Source: Candidatus Saccharibacteria bacterium CG_4_10_14_0_2_um_filter_52_9 (GTDB taxonomy: Bacteria; Actinomycetota; Acidimicrobiia; Acidimicrobiales; RAAP-2). Taken from it: 44,790 nucleotides of DNA. The position numbers were made by a program, and so were the translations under genes. Below, one piece after another: positions 12,356-36,534 of the stretch (its first letter is position 1; every line of letters starts with the position of its first letter). The notes below the pieces were generated by a model. The model was not told where the DNA came from. It did not search any database and worked only from the letters and a program-made list of their open reading frames with translations. The DNA lies in NCBI GenBank assembly GCA_903970515.1, contig CAJCJA010000038.1:1-44790 (forward strand), read 5' to 3'.

Positions 12356-13309
12356 ATGACATCTCGATACGGCATCACGATCCCCTTTGAAGGCGTCAGC
12401 CTTCTAGAGCACAAGGAGTGGTACCACCGTCTCGCCGACCTGGGCTACAGCGACGTGTGGTCCGCCGAAGTCGACGGCGCGGACGGCTTCACCCCGCTCA
12501 CCCTGGCGGCGGCGTGGGAGTCGCGCCTCAACGTGGGCGTCGCCGTCACGCCGGCGTTCACGAGGGGCCCGGGGCTCATGGCGATGAGCATCGCCGCGCT
12601 CGCCGAGGTGGCGGGCGGGCGCTTCACGATGGGACTCGGTTCCTCGAGCTTGCCGGTCGTCCAACAGTGGAACGGCATTGCCTTCGAGCGCCCCTACCAG
12701 AAGACCCGCGACGTGCTGCGATTCGTGAAGAGGGCACTCGAGGGCGAGAAGATTGATGAGGTCTTTGACACCTTCGAGGTCCACGGTTTCAAGTTGTCGC
12801 GTCCAGTGCTCGAACGTCCGACGATTTTGCTCGGAGCGCTGCGCCCGGGCATGCTGCGCCTCGCGGGTCAAGAAGCCGACGGCGCCATCCTCAACTGGCT
12901 CGCCGCGACTGACGTGACCCAATGCATCAAGGAGGTGGGGCCGGACAAGACGATCGCTGCTCGCCTGTTCGTGATACCCACCGACGACGCCGACACGGCG
13001 CGATTCATCGCGCGACGAATGATCTCTTCGTATCTGACCGTCGCGACCTACGCCGAATTCCATCGCTGGCTAGGGCGCGGCGAGGTCCTCCAGCCAATGT
13101 GGGACGCGTGGGCGTCGGGCGATCGCAAGCGGGCGAACGAGGTCATCCCCGATTCACTCGTCGACGAACTCATCATCCACGGCTCCTACGACGCGTGTCG
13201 CGAACACGTCGCGCGATACGTCGAAGCCGGCGTGCAGGTACCCACGCTCGCGATCGTGCCCTTCGGCGTCGACCCCAAGGACGCGGTCGAGGGACTCGCC
13301 CCTCGCTAG
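12356..13309 (+). CDS. LLM-class (luciferase-like) oxidoreductase, probably F420-dependent
   Basis: The 317-residue product is a luciferase-like TIM-barrel protein. Typical segments are YHRLADLGYSDVWSAEVDG, LTLAAAWESRLNVGVAVTP, the conserved barrel strand GGRFTMGLGSSS, and PTILLGALRPGMLRLAGQEA. Actinobacterial members of this family mostly use coenzyme F420 rather than FMN, and cofD-cofE in the same window support that (inference). The substrate is unknown. The ATG at 12356 has GAGAG too close to act as a normal ribosome site; AACACT six bases upstream is a weak leaderless-type -10. Its stop codon overlaps that of the convergent acyl-CoA dehydrogenase in the palindrome CTAG. Confidence 0.9.
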   Translation: MTSRYGITIPFEGVSLLEHKEWYHRLADLGYSDVWSAEVDGADGFTPLTLAAAWESRLNVGVAVTPAFTRGPGLMAMSIAALAEVAGGRFTMGLGSSSLPVVQQWNGIAFERPYQKTRDVLRFVKRALEGEKIDEVFDTFEVHGFKLSRPVLERPTILLGALRPGMLRLAGQEADGAILNWLAATDVTQCIKEVGPDKTIAARLFVIPTDDADTARFIARRMISSYLTVATYAEFHRWLGRGEVLQPMWDAWASGDRKRANEVIPDSLVDELIIHGSYDACREHVARYVEAGVQVPTLAIVPFGVDPKDAVEGLAPR

Positions 13310-14610
13310 ACCTTTTCTGTTTCAAGAAACTCGAGCATGCCCGCGAATTTCTCGCGAGCTGCCGCCGCACGGGTGGGGATGTGGTCGCTCGGAATCTCAC
13401 TCGGGTTATAGCGCTTGAGCGCGTGACGCGCGACCGTCTGACGGTGCACCTCGTCGGGTCCGTCGTAGATGCGCGCCGCGCGCGCCGCGCGGTACATCCC
13501 TTCGAGTGGCATGTCCGCCGAGTAGCCCAACGAACCGTAGGTCTGCAAGGCGCGATCGACCACGTTGTGCAGCACCGACGCGCCGTAGTACTTGATCATC
13601 GCAATCTCGTCGCGTGAGGCGGACGCGCCGACCTTGTCCATCTTCCACGCCGCGTGCAGCGTCATGAGTCGAGCAGCCTGCATCTCGGCAGCCGAATCGG
13701 CGATCCAGTTCTGCACCGTCTGTTTCTCCGCGAGCAAGGAGCCGTGCGTGAAGCGGCTGAGGGCTCGCTCGCACATCATGTCAAACGCACGTTGGGACTG
13801 ACCCAGCCAGCGCATGCAGTGATGAATCCTCCCGGGTCCGAGTCGGGTCTGGGCGAGCAAAAAACCCGATCCCTCGGGTCCAATCAAATGGTCGGCGGGA
13901 ATGCGCACGTCCTGGTAAAGGATCTCGGCGTGATTTCCGAAGCGACCGTACTCCACGTCTGGATGGTCCATCGCGCCCACGTCGCGAAGGATCGTGACAC
14001 CCACGGTATTGACGGGCACCACGAACATTGACGAGCCCTGGTAGGGATGCACGTCAGGATTCGTCACCGCCATCACGATAAGGATGTCCGCCACCGAACC
14101 ATTGGTGGTGTACCACTTTCGTCCGTTGATGACCCACTCATCGCCATCGCGCACCGCACTGGTCTTCAAGAGACGAGGATCGCTGCCCGCGGTGTTGGGC
14201 TCGGTCATCGAGAACCCCGAACGCATCGCGCCATCGAGCAGCGGTTGGAGCCAACGCTCGCGAATGTCCTCGCGTCCCGTCATCTCCATCCCCGCCGCCA
14301 ACAGCTCGGCGTTCCCGCTGTCGGGTGCGTTGTTACCGAAGACCACGGGACCATAGGGGGTCTGTCCCAAGATCTCGTGCATCAGTCCGAGTTTCACTTG
14401 CCCGAAGCCCATGCCCCCGAGTTCGGGAGGGAGATGCGCCGCCCAAAGTCCTCGCGACTTCACCTCATCCTGCAAGGGTCGGATGAAAGCGACCACCTGG
14501 TCGTAACTCAACTTCAACGTCTCAATCGGAAAGATCTCCTCCTTCACGAACGATCGCATCCATGTCAACTTCTCTTCAAATTCCGGCTCGGTCTCAAAGT
14601 CCCACGCCAT
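13306..14610 (-). CDS. Acyl-CoA dehydrogenase, ACAD10/11-like
   Basis: This 434-residue FAD-dependent flavoprotein would oxidise acyl-CoA thioesters at the alpha-beta bond. Seen in order: the helical N-terminal domain with HLPPELGGMGFGQVKLGLMH, the FAD/substrate strand SGFSMTEPNTAGSDPRLLKT, WVINGRKWYTTNGSVADI, and the C-terminal helical domain with the signature ARIYDGPDEVHRQTVARHAL. That signature points to the ACAD10/11 branch rather than the short/medium-chain enzymes with Y-E-G. The start has a good AGAAGG ribosome site and a TAGAGT-like -10 further upstream. It is divergent from the riboflavin synthase gene and convergent with the LLM oxidoreductase. A role in fatty or branched acid catabolism is likely. 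Confidence 0.93.
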   Translation of the reverse strand: MAWDFETEPEFEEKLTWMRSFVKEEIFPIETLKLSYDQVVAFIRPLQDEVKSRGLWAAHLPPELGGMGFGQVKLGLMHEILGQTPYGPVVFGNNAPDSGNAELLAAGMEMTGREDIRERWLQPLLDGAMRSGFSMTEPNTAGSDPRLLKTSAVRDGDEWVINGRKWYTTNGSVADILIVMAVTNPDVHPYQGSSMFVVPVNTVGVTILRDVGAMDHPDVEYGRFGNHAEILYQDVRIPADHLIGPEGSGFLLAQTRLGPGRIHHCMRWLGQSQRAFDMMCERALSRFTHGSLLAEKQTVQNWIADSAAEMQAARLMTLHAAWKMDKVGASASRDEIAMIKYYGASVLHNVVDRALQTYGSLGYSADMPLEGMYRAARAARIYDGPDEVHRQTVARHALKRYNPSEIPSDHIPTRAAAAREKFAGMLEFLETEKV

Positions 14611-14714: not shown

Positions 14715-15224
14715 ATGGCCAAGAAAACGAAGTCTCATAAGAAAGTAAAGAAGATCGGCGTCGTCGACACCATGTTCGCTCGCTACAACATGGGAGCAGA
14801 GGCGCGCGCCGAACTGAGCGAGTGCCCCGGATACGGCGAGACTTTCAAGGTGGTCTCGCAAACGGTGCCTGGCTTCAAGGACCTCGCCGTCGCCGCGAAG
14901 AACCTCATCGAACAAGAGGGCTGCTCGATTGTGGTCGCCCTCGGTATGCCCGGCTCCGCACCGATTGATAAGCAATGCGCCCACGAAGCGTCCATGGGCA
15001 TCATGCAGGCCCAATTACTCACCTCCACGCCGATTCTCGAAGTCTTCGTCCACGAAGACGAAGCCGACGAGCCCGTCGTGTTGCGCCGCCTCTTCGAGAA
15101 CCGCTCGCGCGAACACGCTCGCAACGCCTACTGGATGCTCTTCGAGCCCGAACAATTAAGGGAACGAGCCGGTATGGGCATCCGCCAGGGATTCGCGGAC
15201 GCGGGACCGCTGCCCGCGCAGTAG
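14715..15224 (+). CDS. ribC: Riboflavin synthase, archaeal type (RibC of methanogens)
   Basis: The 169-residue product matches the archaeal riboflavin synthase family, not the bacterial RibE with its duplicated lumazine-binding barrels. It converts two 6,7-dimethyl-8-ribityllumazine to riboflavin plus the diaminouracil precursor. The family blocks run almost without gaps: KIGVVDTMFARYNMG, QTVPGFKDLAVAAKNLIEQE, GCSIVVALGMPG, CAHEASMGIMQAQLL, ILEVFVHEDEADE and MGIRQGFADAGP at the end. I compared these with my memory of the Methanocaldococcus jannaschii protein (about 155 residues). A Lys-rich extension of about 12 residues (MAKKTKSHKKVK) precedes the family start. Archaeal members are structurally related to lumazine synthase (family knowledge). 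Finding this form in an actinobacterium is unusual and suggests ancient transfer (inference). Confidence 0.9.
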   Translation: MAKKTKSHKKVKKIGVVDTMFARYNMGAEARAELSECPGYGETFKVVSQTVPGFKDLAVAAKNLIEQEGCSIVVALGMPGSAPIDKQCAHEASMGIMQAQLLTSTPILEVFVHEDEADEPVVLRRLFENRSREHARNAYWMLFEPEQLRERAGMGIRQGFADAGPLPAQ

Positions 15225-15294: not shown

Positions 15295-16503
15295 ATGCCC
15301 GAAGCCGTCATCGTCGCCACCGGACGCACGCCCATTGGCCGAGCCTTCAAGGGTTCGCTCGTGGACATGCGCCCCGATGACCTCACCGCACTCGTCGTGC
15401 GTCACGTCCTCGCCTCAATCCCCGAACTCGATCCCCAGACGGTCGAGGACCTCATCGTGGGCTGCGGCCAGCCCGCCGGCGAGTCGGGCTTCAACGTCGC
15501 GCGCGTCGCGGCGATCCTCGCGGGACTCGACAACGTCCCCGGCGTCACGGTGAACCGTTACTGCTCGTCGTCGCTGCAGACCATTCGAATGGCGGCGCAC
15601 GCGATTCGTGCGGGGGAAGGCGACGTGTTCATCGCGGCGGGAGTGGAAACCGTGTCACGATTTGGCGCGGGCGCCTCGGACAGCGGCAAGGCCATGAACC
15701 CTCTCTTCAACGACGCACTCGCGCGCACCGCGGGCCGCTCGGAGAAGGTCACCGAACCGTGGACGGCGCAGCCGGGATTACCCGACATCTACATCGCGAT
15801 GGGACAGACGGCGGAGAACGTGGCCGAATACGAGAAAGTCTCTCGCCTCGAGATGGACGAATTCGCCGTACGCAGCCAAGAGCTCGCCGTTGAACACCAG
15901 GCCAACGGGTTCTTCGAACGCGAGATCATTCCCGTCACGCTGCCCGACGGAACGGTCGTGAGCAAAGATGACGGACCGCGCGCCGGCACGACCCTCGAGA
16001 AACTCTCCGCCCTTCAGCCGGTCTTTCGCGAGGGTGGCACGGTGACGGCGGGAAACGCCTGTCCGCTCAATGACGGCGCCGCCGCGGTCGTCGTCATGAG
16101 CGACACTCGCGCGAAGCAGCTCGGCCTCAAGCCCCTCGCGCGAATTGTCGCGAGTGGCGTCAGTGGCCTTAACCCCGAGATCATGGGTCTCGGTCCCATC
16201 GAAGCGTGTCGCCAAGCTCTCAGCCGCGCCAACATGTCGATCAAGGACATCGACCTCGTCGAGATCAACGAAGCCTTCGCCGCTCAGGTCATCCCCAGCG
16301 CGAAGCACCTCGAGATTCCATTGGAGAAACTCAACATTCGAGGTGGCGGCATTGCCCTCGGCCACCCGTTTGGCATGACCGGTGCACGCATCATGACGAC
16401 GTTGCTCAACTCCCTCGAGGATTCTGGAAAGAAGTTCGGTTTGGAATCGATGTGCGTCGGCGGGGGCCAGGGTATGGCCATAATCGTCGAGCGTCTCGAC
16501 TAG
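15295..16503 (+). CDS. Acetyl-CoA acetyltransferase (thiolase)
   Basis: The 402-residue thiolase has all catalytic residues: the nucleophile Cys90 in VNRYCSSSLQ, the NEAFAAQ motif, His357 in ALGHPFGMTGAR and the acid/base Cys387 in SMCVGGGQGM. It condenses or cleaves acyl-CoA units, as the last step of beta-oxidation or in acetoacetyl-CoA formation. The nearby acyl-CoA dehydrogenase fits either. The start is clear: AGGAGGA at 15284-15290, four bases before the ATG, the strongest ribosome site in the window. Its stop codon overlaps that of the convergent Trm112-like gene within CTAG. Confidence 0.95.
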   Translation: MPEAVIVATGRTPIGRAFKGSLVDMRPDDLTALVVRHVLASIPELDPQTVEDLIVGCGQPAGESGFNVARVAAILAGLDNVPGVTVNRYCSSSLQTIRMAAHAIRAGEGDVFIAAGVETVSRFGAGASDSGKAMNPLFNDALARTAGRSEKVTEPWTAQPGLPDIYIAMGQTAENVAEYEKVSRLEMDEFAVRSQELAVEHQANGFFEREIIPVTLPDGTVVSKDDGPRAGTTLEKLSALQPVFREGGTVTAGNACPLNDGAAAVVVMSDTRAKQLGLKPLARIVASGVSGLNPEIMGLGPIEACRQALSRANMSIKDIDLVEINEAFAAQVIPSAKHLEIPLEKLNIRGGGIALGHPFGMTGARIMTTLLNSLEDSGKKFGLESMCVGGGQGMAIIVERLD

Positions 16504-32945: not shown

Positions 32946-33860
32946 GTGATATCCGTTCTCAGTGGTGGCGTTGGCGCGGCACGACTCTTGCGTGCACTCA
33001 GTGGTGAGATTGCGCCGGGTGAGATCAACGCCATCGTCAATGTTGGCGACGATCTCGTTCTGCACGGACTGACCATTTGCCCCGATCTCGACACCATCAC
33101 CTACACCCTCGCCGGACTCAACAACGAAGTACTCGGGTGGGGCCTCAATGGCGAATCGTGGCGCGTCATGGAGGAACTTGAGGCACTCGGTGGCGCCTCC
33201 TGGTTCCGACTCGGAGATCGAGACCTGGCCACCCACCTTTATCGAAGCCAGCGAATAATTGAAGGCGCGACCAAGACCGACGTCACCCGTGAACTCTGCG
33301 AGCGCCACGGCGTGGGGGTCCGCGTGTTGCCGGCGACGAATGATGAGATTGCCACCGTTTTTAAAACCGAGGTGGGTCGACTCAGTTTCCAGGACTACTT
33401 CGTGCGCCATCACTACGACGTGAAGGTCGAAAGCATCACCATTCAAGGTGCCGCGACGGCAAGCGTCACCAAGGAAACTCTCGACGCATTGCGCAACAGC
33501 GCCCGCATCGTCATCGCGCCATCGAATCCGCTGATCTCAATCGACCCCATACTCCAGCTCGGAGAAATTAAGGACATTCTGATGGAGCGACGAGAGGACG
33601 TCATCGCTGTCTCACCCATCATCAACGGCGCCGCGCTCAAGGGACCCGCCGACCGCTTGATGCGTGACCTCGGTTACGACGCGACGTGCGTTGGCGTCGC
33701 CGACTTCTACGAAGGGCTCATTGGTTCCTTCGTCATTGACGAGCGCGATGCGTCGTCGGCGTCAGCAATCTCATCGCGTGGCATCGACGTGCACGTCACC
33801 ACCACGATCATGCAAGATCCGCTCGACGCAAAACGACTCGCTCAGGCGGTGCTCACTTGA
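32946..33860 (+). CDS. cofD: 2-phospho-L-lactate transferase / F420 precursor transferase
   Basis: The 304-residue product is CofD/FbiA, which transfers the phospholactate (or phosphoenolpyruvate-derived) group to the deazaflavin Fo in coenzyme F420 synthesis. The N-terminal loop SVLSGGVGAARLLRALSG and the block NVGDDLVLHGLTICPDLDT are characteristic, as are GLNNEVLGWGLNGESW and WFRLGDRDLATHLYRSQ. The GTG start follows TAAGGT-N7. The stop overlaps the TTG start of cofE (TTGA). Gene order cofD-cofE-(manC) agrees with fbiA-fbiB and the nearby manC of mycobacteria. Confidence 0.95.
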   Translation: MISVLSGGVGAARLLRALSGEIAPGEINAIVNVGDDLVLHGLTICPDLDTITYTLAGLNNEVLGWGLNGESWRVMEELEALGGASWFRLGDRDLATHLYRSQRIIEGATKTDVTRELCERHGVGVRVLPATNDEIATVFKTEVGRLSFQDYFVRHHYDVKVESITIQGAATASVTKETLDALRNSARIVIAPSNPLISIDPILQLGEIKDILMERREDVIAVSPIINGAALKGPADRLMRDLGYDATCVGVADFYEGLIGSFVIDERDASSASAISSRGIDVHVTTTIMQDPLDAKRLAQAVLT

Positions 33861-34567
33861 ACGAACTACGTATTATCCCGGTACCGGGAGTCGGCAAGAT
33901 CGTTAATGGTGACGACCTTATGTCGTTGTTAGTGACAGCGCTCGATGCCGCATCACTCTCGCTACTCGACGGCGATCTCATCATTGTCACGAGCAAGGTG
34001 GTCTCCAAGGCCGAAGGTCAGGTCGTGGCGTTCGATGGAAGCGAAGAGCACAAGGTGCGACTCGTCGAGCAAGAATCCAAGCGAGTCTTGCGGCGTCGAG
34101 GACCGCTTCGCATCACCGAATCACGACACGGCTTCGTAAGTGCGAACGCCGGCATCGATCTGTCCAACGCCGACGAAGGTACCGCGGTGCTCCTACCCAA
34201 GGATCCCGATCGCTCGGCCCGTCGCTTTCGCGCTGAGATCCGCCAGCGCCGGGACGTCGACGTGGCCGTCATCATTACCGACACCTTCGGGCGCGTATGG
34301 AGAAACGGCGTCACCGACGTCGCCCTCGGCAGCGCCGGTATCGTGCCTATCCTCGACCTGCGCGGCACGACCGACGCGAACGGTCGTCAATTGGAAGCGA
34401 CCGAAATTGCGATCGCCGACGAGATAGCGGGCGCCGCCAATCTTGTTCTCGGCAAAGCCGAGGGGACTCCCTTCGCCATTGTGCGGGGACTCGACCCGTT
34501 ATATTTTGGCGACGGTTCCATCAGCGGCGACATCATTCGATCGCCCTTCGACGATCTCTTTCGTTGA
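33857..34567 (+). CDS. cofE: Coenzyme F420-0:L-glutamate ligase, stand-alone
   Basis: The 236-residue product adds glutamate to F420-0. Motifs are IPVPGVGKIVNGDDL near the start, GDLIIVTSKVVSKAEGQVV, RESRHGFV-like ITESRHGFVSANAGID and IITDTFGRVWRNGVTDVALG. It lacks the C-terminal FMN-binding nitroreductase-like domain that mycobacterial FbiB (about 450 residues) carries, so it resembles the archaeal CofE in architecture. The TTG start overlaps the cofD stop (TTGA), so the two are coupled. Its stop directly abuts the stop of the convergent ManC-type gene (TGATCA). Confidence 0.95.
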   Translation: MNELRIIPVPGVGKIVNGDDLMSLLVTALDAASLSLLDGDLIIVTSKVVSKAEGQVVAFDGSEEHKVRLVEQESKRVLRRRGPLRITESRHGFVSANAGIDLSNADEGTAVLLPKDPDRSARRFRAEIRQRRDVDVAVIITDTFGRVWRNGVTDVALGSAGIVPILDLRGTTDANGRQLEATEIAIADEIAGAANLVLGKAEGTPFAIVRGLDPLYFGDGSISGDIIRSPFDDLFR

Positions 34568-36460: not shown

Positions 36461-36534
36461 TAGGGGCGAAGGGACTCGAACCCTCACTGGAGGCGGTTTA
36501 AGCGCCCTGCCTCTGCCAATTGGGCTACGCCCCC
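36461..36534 (-). tRNA. tRNA-Leu(UAA), short variable loop
   Basis: The 74-base minus-strand gene folds into a full cloverleaf: acceptor GGGGGCG/CGCCCCT (first pair G-U), a three-pair D-stem GCC/GGC with loop CAATTGGCAGA, anticodon stem GGGCG/CGCCT with loop CTTAAAC, T-stem GAGGG/CCCTT with loop TTCGAGT, discriminator A. The anticodon TAA reads the Leu codon UUA. The D-loop is the type found in leucine tRNAs, but the variable region is only CCAGT (five bases), not the long arm of bacterial tRNA-Leu. The 3' CCA is not encoded (next bases CGC). UUA codons occur in neighbouring genes such as cofE. Confidence 0.88.

Follow-up and report, generated by a model that had tools for sequence, protein, structure and literature searches.

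We propose that a gene from the Acidimicrobiales, ribC, encodes a pentameric riboflavin synthase of the archaeal type, that it is the only riboflavin synthase of its host, and that it was acquired away from the riboflavin operon, with the bacterial gene for this step (ribE) being lost later. We consider this account very probable. Two unrelated riboflavin synthases are generally distinguished, one from bacteria and one from archaea. Organisms that make their own riboflavin cannot do without this enzyme.

The window (the whole stretch of DNA that was analysed, 44,790 nucleotides) contains these features:

12356..13309, + strand: LLM-class F420-dependent oxidoreductase, near ribC (TIGR03841, 281.3 bits; cut-off 213.65)
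13306..14610, - strand: acyl-CoA dehydrogenase family protein, the divergent neighbour of ribC (NCBIfam models, all below their cut-offs)
14715..15224, + strand: ribC, archaeal-type riboflavin synthase, 169 amino acids (TIGR01506, 179.9 bits; PDB 2b98; fold match 2b99_A)
14715..14750, + strand: Lys-rich N-terminal extension of RibC, residues 1-12 (partly predicted to be disordered; low-complexity)
15295..16503, + strand: acetyl-CoA C-acetyltransferase (thiolase), the downstream neighbour of ribC (NF005890, 688 bits; cut-off 580)
36461-36534, - strand: tRNA gene (Rfam, 52.6 bits)

The protein is a member of the archaeal riboflavin synthase family

The frame at 14715-15224 is open, and the motifs that were quoted when the gene was first picked out are present in its translation. 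The ATG at 14715 is the in-frame start nearest to the domain; starts that would give a longer protein are available upstream, from 14562. Against the NCBIfam equivalog model TIGR01506 (ribC_arch), the protein scores 179.9 bits (cut-off 100.55), with residues 13-166 aligned to positions 1-151 of the 151 in the profile. For comparison, RibC from M. jannaschii scores 231.8 bits and a Streptomyces protein scores 163.2 bits. The nearest entries in a sequence search of the PDB were the riboflavin synthase of M. jannaschii (2b98/2b99; 1.3e-50) and constructs that contain this enzyme, and a BLASTP comparison to the M. jannaschii enzyme gave 86/155 identical residues (55%). Chance does not account for a match of this strength.

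The key motifs are conserved as well. TVPG-KDL, MPG, CAHEA, EVFVHE, and RQG are invariant in nine sequences that include M. jannaschii, and the mean column identity was 80% in an alignment of 30 sequences that includes the window protein (and leaves out L012, which is a copy of the window). A Pfam scan of the window protein found PF00885 only (the DMRL_synthase superfamily; 55.5 bits), and the Lum_binding domain of bacterial RibE (PF00677) was absent. The original prediction was that this is an archaeal-type RibC, to be checked against the archaeal riboflavin synthase profile. The protein passes that profile over its whole length, and the assignment is borne out by the score, by the identity to the M. 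jannaschii enzyme, and by the best fold match (2b99; see below).

The rest of the pathway is bacterial

The genome assembly (96.46% complete) consists of 56 contigs with a total length of 1.97 Mb, and we found one copy of RibC in it. RibD, RibBA, and RibH are each above their NCBIfam cut-offs. Their genes are in an operon with the order rpe-ribD-ribBA-ribH, in which the matches for ribD and ribBA are two bases apart. It had been suggested that bacterial-type ribE and ribH be sought elsewhere in the genome. A separate lumazine synthase (RibH) is on contig C51, and a profile search of the contigs of this 96.46% complete genome did not find the bacterial RibE domain (PF00677). As a control, we ran the PF00677 search on 14 genomes, 11 of which gave a match; the three without a match include M. 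jannaschii. RibC is thus the apparent sole riboflavin synthase, in that it is the only one found in this genome; strictly, a ribE could lie in the missing part. An alternative route to riboflavin had also been suggested, and this we do not see: with RibD, RibBA, and RibH all present, it is the last enzyme that is swapped in an otherwise bacterial pathway.

In the archaeal family, riboflavin synthase acts as a homopentamer and uses 6,7-dimethyl-8-ribityllumazine, two molecules at a time, to form riboflavin and 5-amino-6-ribitylaminouracil. We propose that in this cell the substrate would come from its own RibD, RibBA, and RibH of the bacterial type; that RibC, as a putative pentamer, would dismutate two molecules of it to form riboflavin and 5-amino-6-ribitylaminouracil; and that the latter by-product would go back to RibH. 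As for how this hybrid pathway arose, an ancestor in the order would have gained ribC at a site that was unlinked to the riboflavin operon, and ribE would then have been lost from between ribD and ribBA. Our data directly support the family membership, the predicted fold, the failure to find RibE, the presence of the other pathway genes, the difference in the operon, and the distribution; that RibC is active, that it forms a pentamer, that its by-product is recycled, that the events took place in this order, and that the source was archaeal are inferences.

Distribution of RibC and RibE

Our sample of the order comprised 61 genomes, with 37 from the same genus and 24 from other families. RibC was above the cut-off in 31 of the 61 (30/37 from the genus and 1/24 from elsewhere) and RibE was above the cut-off in 19, with no overlap between the two sets. 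RibE was not found in any of the 37 genomes of the genus.

In a sample of the class, RibC was above the cut-off in 28 of 296 genomes, which belong to seven families: 22 of the 25 genomes in its own family (f1) and one genome each in f28, f31, f37, f38, f39, and f40. RibE was above the cut-off in 213 of the 296. One of the RibC genomes (G152) has a weak match to PF00677 (E = 1.8e-4), which is the weakest among the matches listed, and the other 27 have no RibE match among the matches listed. If the single RibE match below the cut-off is the one from G152, then there is no overlap between RibC and RibE across the 296 genomes. Zero overlap would arise by chance with a probability of 7e-18 under independent labels, but the kinship of the genomes makes this figure far too strong. 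This mutual exclusion would give indirect support to a riboflavin synthase activity for RibC.

In a sample of the phylum, RibC was above the cut-off in 13 of 396 genomes, and all 13 are within one order, so RibC is not a general actinobacterial gene. This argues against the outcome that had been named as fatal to the idea, which was a protein that is standard across the Actinobacteria beside a working RibE.

Together, the samples of the order and the class contain 58 distinct genomes with RibC above the cut-off. We checked for RibH in 21 of them (the genome discussed above and 20 others), and a separate lumazine synthase was present in all 20 of the others.

A scan of genome contigs found at least 562 relatives, and the best 80 of these are all titled as MAGs. 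All but four of the 80 have titles with Acidimicrobiaceae, Acidimicrobiales, Actinomycetes, Actinobacteria, Actinomycetota, or actinobacterium, and bog, palsa, and fen occur among the isolate names. We also note that ribC is in four records that are titled Acidobacteria or Acidobacteriota (L065, L079, L081, and L128); the titles of L065 and L079 look wrong. The RibC proteins of G335 (from f1) and G246 (from f37), at loci L134/L135, score 201-205 bits against the archaeal profile, which is higher than the rest of the order (about 165-187 bits).

Another idea that we rejected is that ribC is carried by mobile or viral elements: phage records contained no relative and no relative was confirmed in viral contigs. 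There is one on a Streptomyces plasmid, which is discussed below.

The riboflavin operon with and without ribE

Relatives with RibE have the operon ribD-ribE-ribBA-ribH, while in carriers of RibC, ribD adjoins ribBA. More precisely, ribE lies between ribD and ribBA in all 14 of the RibE genomes with a ribD match in view, and ribE is followed by ribBA in 18/18 RibE genomes, with gaps between matches of up to about 400 bases. In all 19 RibC genomes with ribD in view, ribBA comes directly after ribD, and the gap between the two matches is 2 to 247 bases. As ribE is about 580 bases, there is no ribE in this place. The comparison covers 20 of the 58 distinct RibC genomes. It leaves out G037, whose RibE is at the edge of a contig; L045 and L053, which are second loci from G047 and G038; and G284, whose contig begins at ribH.

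We also considered a regulatory link via a riboswitch. An Rfam scan at gathering thresholds covered the window and five other stretches (L210, L211, L212, L214, and L215). It gave no FMN riboswitch, only a tRNA, and we rejected this link. We also set aside the idea that losing RibE would alter the cage formed by RibH, after consulting PMC13376624.

Origin of the gene

The original prediction spoke of an ancient transfer. The simplest reading of our results is indeed an old acquisition of ribC within the order, and what we see looks as if an essential enzyme had long ago been replaced in a single order. The other half of that claim, an archaeal donor, is likely, but it is not established by our tree, which had one archaeal sequence.

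A single acquisition is possible. It is somewhat unlikely, in our view, that there were instead several separate acquisitions of ribC in the order. A tree of RibD and RibBA from 38 genomes requires three changes of state between RibC and RibE, as do the bootstrap trees, and it places two families with RibE (f21 and f22) among the families with RibC. However, the branches concerned are weak, and the strongly supported branches in this tree force one change only. Also, a tree of RibC itself groups the proteins from f37 with some of those from f1, on a weakly supported branch. The resolution of that tree is low, with 5 strong branches among its 20 inner ones.

A bolder version of the single event, which we offer tentatively and think rather doubtful, is that one replacement took place in the ancestor of up to eight families, and that this stock, rather than archaea directly, later gave rise to the ribE2 in the roseoflavin clusters of Streptomyces. 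The order's RibC proteins may bear on the origin of the extra copy in Streptomyces.

The reverse direction seems to us unlikely: ribC would have reached the order via other bacteria, such as actinobacteria with the stock of the Streptomyces RibE2, and not from archaea. The protein from S. camelliae is 58-67% identical to 21 proteins from the order and is 50% identical to the M. jannaschii enzyme, while the 21 proteins are 52-60% identical to M. jannaschii; 20 of them are 64-86% identical to the remaining one, the window protein. But this comparison involves a single sequence from archaea and a single one from Streptomyces, and each sits on a long branch in the RibC tree.

Relationship to lumazine synthase

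A single-chain AlphaFold2 model of the window protein, built with 30 related sequences, has a pLDDT of 84.3. The best match to this model in the PDB is 2b99_A (E = 2.5e-18; TM = 0.91 by target length). After the archaeal enzyme, the next natural fold matches are lumazine synthases from Brucella and Mesorhizobium, and the first match to a lumazine synthase has E = 4.1e-8 and TM = 0.70.

These matches, the Pfam label of DMRL_synthase, and the shared superfamily of RibC and lumazine synthase raise the question of whether we are looking at a divergent lumazine synthase, or at a RibH2-like paralogue with some other role, with riboflavin being made by another protein. We consider this very unlikely and dropped it on the profile scores: the protein scores 180 bits against the equivalog for RibC, as compared to 27.2 bits against the equivalog for lumazine synthase (TIGR00114), which is below the cut-off of 84.6, so it is not placed in RibH. 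Furthermore, the genome also has a proper RibH, and ribC is found in genomes without RibE.

Genes near ribC

In 40 of 80 named loci, ribC adjoins a gene for thiolase, the LLM-class oxidoreductase, acyl-CoA dehydrogenase, or PPK2. The thiolase is downstream of ribC in 33 of the 80, as it is in the window; the acyl-CoA dehydrogenase gene adjoins ribC in 21; and the LLM gene is directly before ribC in 14. The other 40 loci have none of the window's neighbours beside ribC, and four of these loci end near ribC on one side. Searches of the 80 loci, with flanks of up to 8 kb, did not find ribD, ribE, ribBA, or ribH beside ribC (tblastn, E of 1e-20 and identity above 40%).

Contamination, with archaeal DNA having been binned with a bacterium, might be suggested by the fragmented assembly (56 contigs) and by the MAG titles of all 80 named relatives, but we reject it as exceedingly improbable, as ribC is internal to a 44.8-kb contig, its neighbours in the window recur in half of the named loci (40/80), proteins from the order are 64-90% identical to the window protein and 52-60% identical to the archaeal protein, and the absence of RibE correlates with it, in that the same genomes are without RibE.

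Genomes that do not fit

Seven of the 37 genomes from the genus do not have RibC above the cut-off, and in six of these, our searches found neither enzyme. The seventh is G029, in which ribC is broken: it is split over two reading frames (L244:8476-8980), due to either a mutation or a sequencing error.

In G001 and G008, the thiolase that is often downstream of ribC stops at the end of a contig, so ribC may be in the gap. In G013 (L255 and L238), another gene is upstream of the thiolase, in the place where ribC would be expected. By eye, we take this gene to be acyl-CoA-ligase-like. Profile searches did not find RibC in the genome of G013, and ribD, ribBA, and ribH are present. G014 (L240) and G016 (L239) keep the operon of ribD-ribBA-ribH (with split frames in G014); neither RibC nor RibE was found, and a close match to the thiolase is absent as well. 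Finally, the matches to RibH and to DHBP synthase are both absent from G019, which may be a riboflavin auxotroph.

G040, from elsewhere in the order, has RibH together with a ribBA fragment at the end of a contig, and this may be why its ribE is missing.

More broadly, about 55 of the 296 genomes from the class have neither RibE nor RibC above the cut-off, including the single-contig genomes G042 and G187. Across the samples of the class and the order, there are 56 genomes with neither enzyme. Of these, 45 are without the DHBP-synthase domain of RibBA and 52 are without RibH, which suggests that whole lineages are unable to make riboflavin.

The N-terminal tail and cofactor F420

The Lys-rich N-terminal extension that was part of the original prediction is present, and it appears at the level of the genus. 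At least four of the 12 residues before the domain are lysine or arginine in 38 of 43 rows from the genus (g1), as compared to 0 of 14 rows from other genera or families; in all 14 of the latter, the nearest in-frame start is three codons before the domain. The tail looks like a late addition within the genus. In the predicted structure, residues 1-8 have pLDDT under 50. For 19 of the 43 rows from the genus, a start codon lies seven codons or fewer from the domain, and some of these proteins may therefore be made without the tail; the window's row has no such start.

The prediction also linked the archaeal enzyme to a genome that makes cofactor F420. The genes for F420 are there: cofD and cofE are side by side at 32946-34567 in the window (+ strand), and contig C55 has a frame with CofH above the cut-off, which is preceded by a second, weaker match. 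FO and riboflavin have a precursor in common. Nevertheless, we found no support for a tie between F420 and the swap of enzymes.

Comparison to known systems

The closest precedent is from Streptomyces. A plasmid of S. camelliae (NZ_CP115301.1) encodes a RibC that is 62.6% identical to the window protein. Its gene is flanked by ribX and a gene for gamma-glutamyltransferase, and rosB is nearby; the region at L179:12315-18487 contains ribA, the archaeal-type ribC, ribX, and rosB of a roseoflavin-type cluster. In PMC11039241, the S. camelliae homologue (WP_270086807.1) is entered under RibE2. According to the same paper, RibE2 is a riboflavin synthase that raises riboflavin levels (citing Kissling 2020), and in roseoflavin-producing Streptomyces, the archaeal-like RibE2 is an additional copy, with a ribE1 operon elsewhere. 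Among the papers listed by our searches of the open-licence literature, we did not find any on an archaeal-type enzyme in the Acidimicrobiales or as the sole riboflavin synthase of a bacterium, and the available portions of PMC3239331 and PMC6709556 contain nothing on the archaeal-type enzyme.

What is new, then, is an archaeal-type enzyme as the apparent sole riboflavin synthase; this is a known family in a new role, at a modest distance from what was described before. The window protein has in common with the RibC of M. jannaschii (2b98/2b99) its full-length match to the profile, 55% identity, and the predicted fold, but it sits in a bacterium with bacterial RibD, RibBA, and RibH, and it has a Lys-rich tail. 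Bacterial RibE (PF00677, TIGR00187) is expected to catalyze the same reaction but belongs to a different family. With RibH (PF00885), the protein shares its superfamily and fold, but it falls below the equivalog cut-off, and a separate RibH is encoded in the genome. Like RibE2 of the rosB cluster, it is an archaeal-like riboflavin synthase in an actinobacterium; RibE2, however, is a supplementary copy within an antibiotic cluster, while the window protein is the only copy found and has no rib gene beside it. There are many genomes in which the acquisition of ribC, the loss of ribE from the operon, and their later fate can be compared to the families of the order that kept ribE. That a bacterial lineage apparently completes its riboflavin pathway with the archaeal enzyme alone suggests that the bacterial and archaeal riboflavin synthases are interchangeable in nature.
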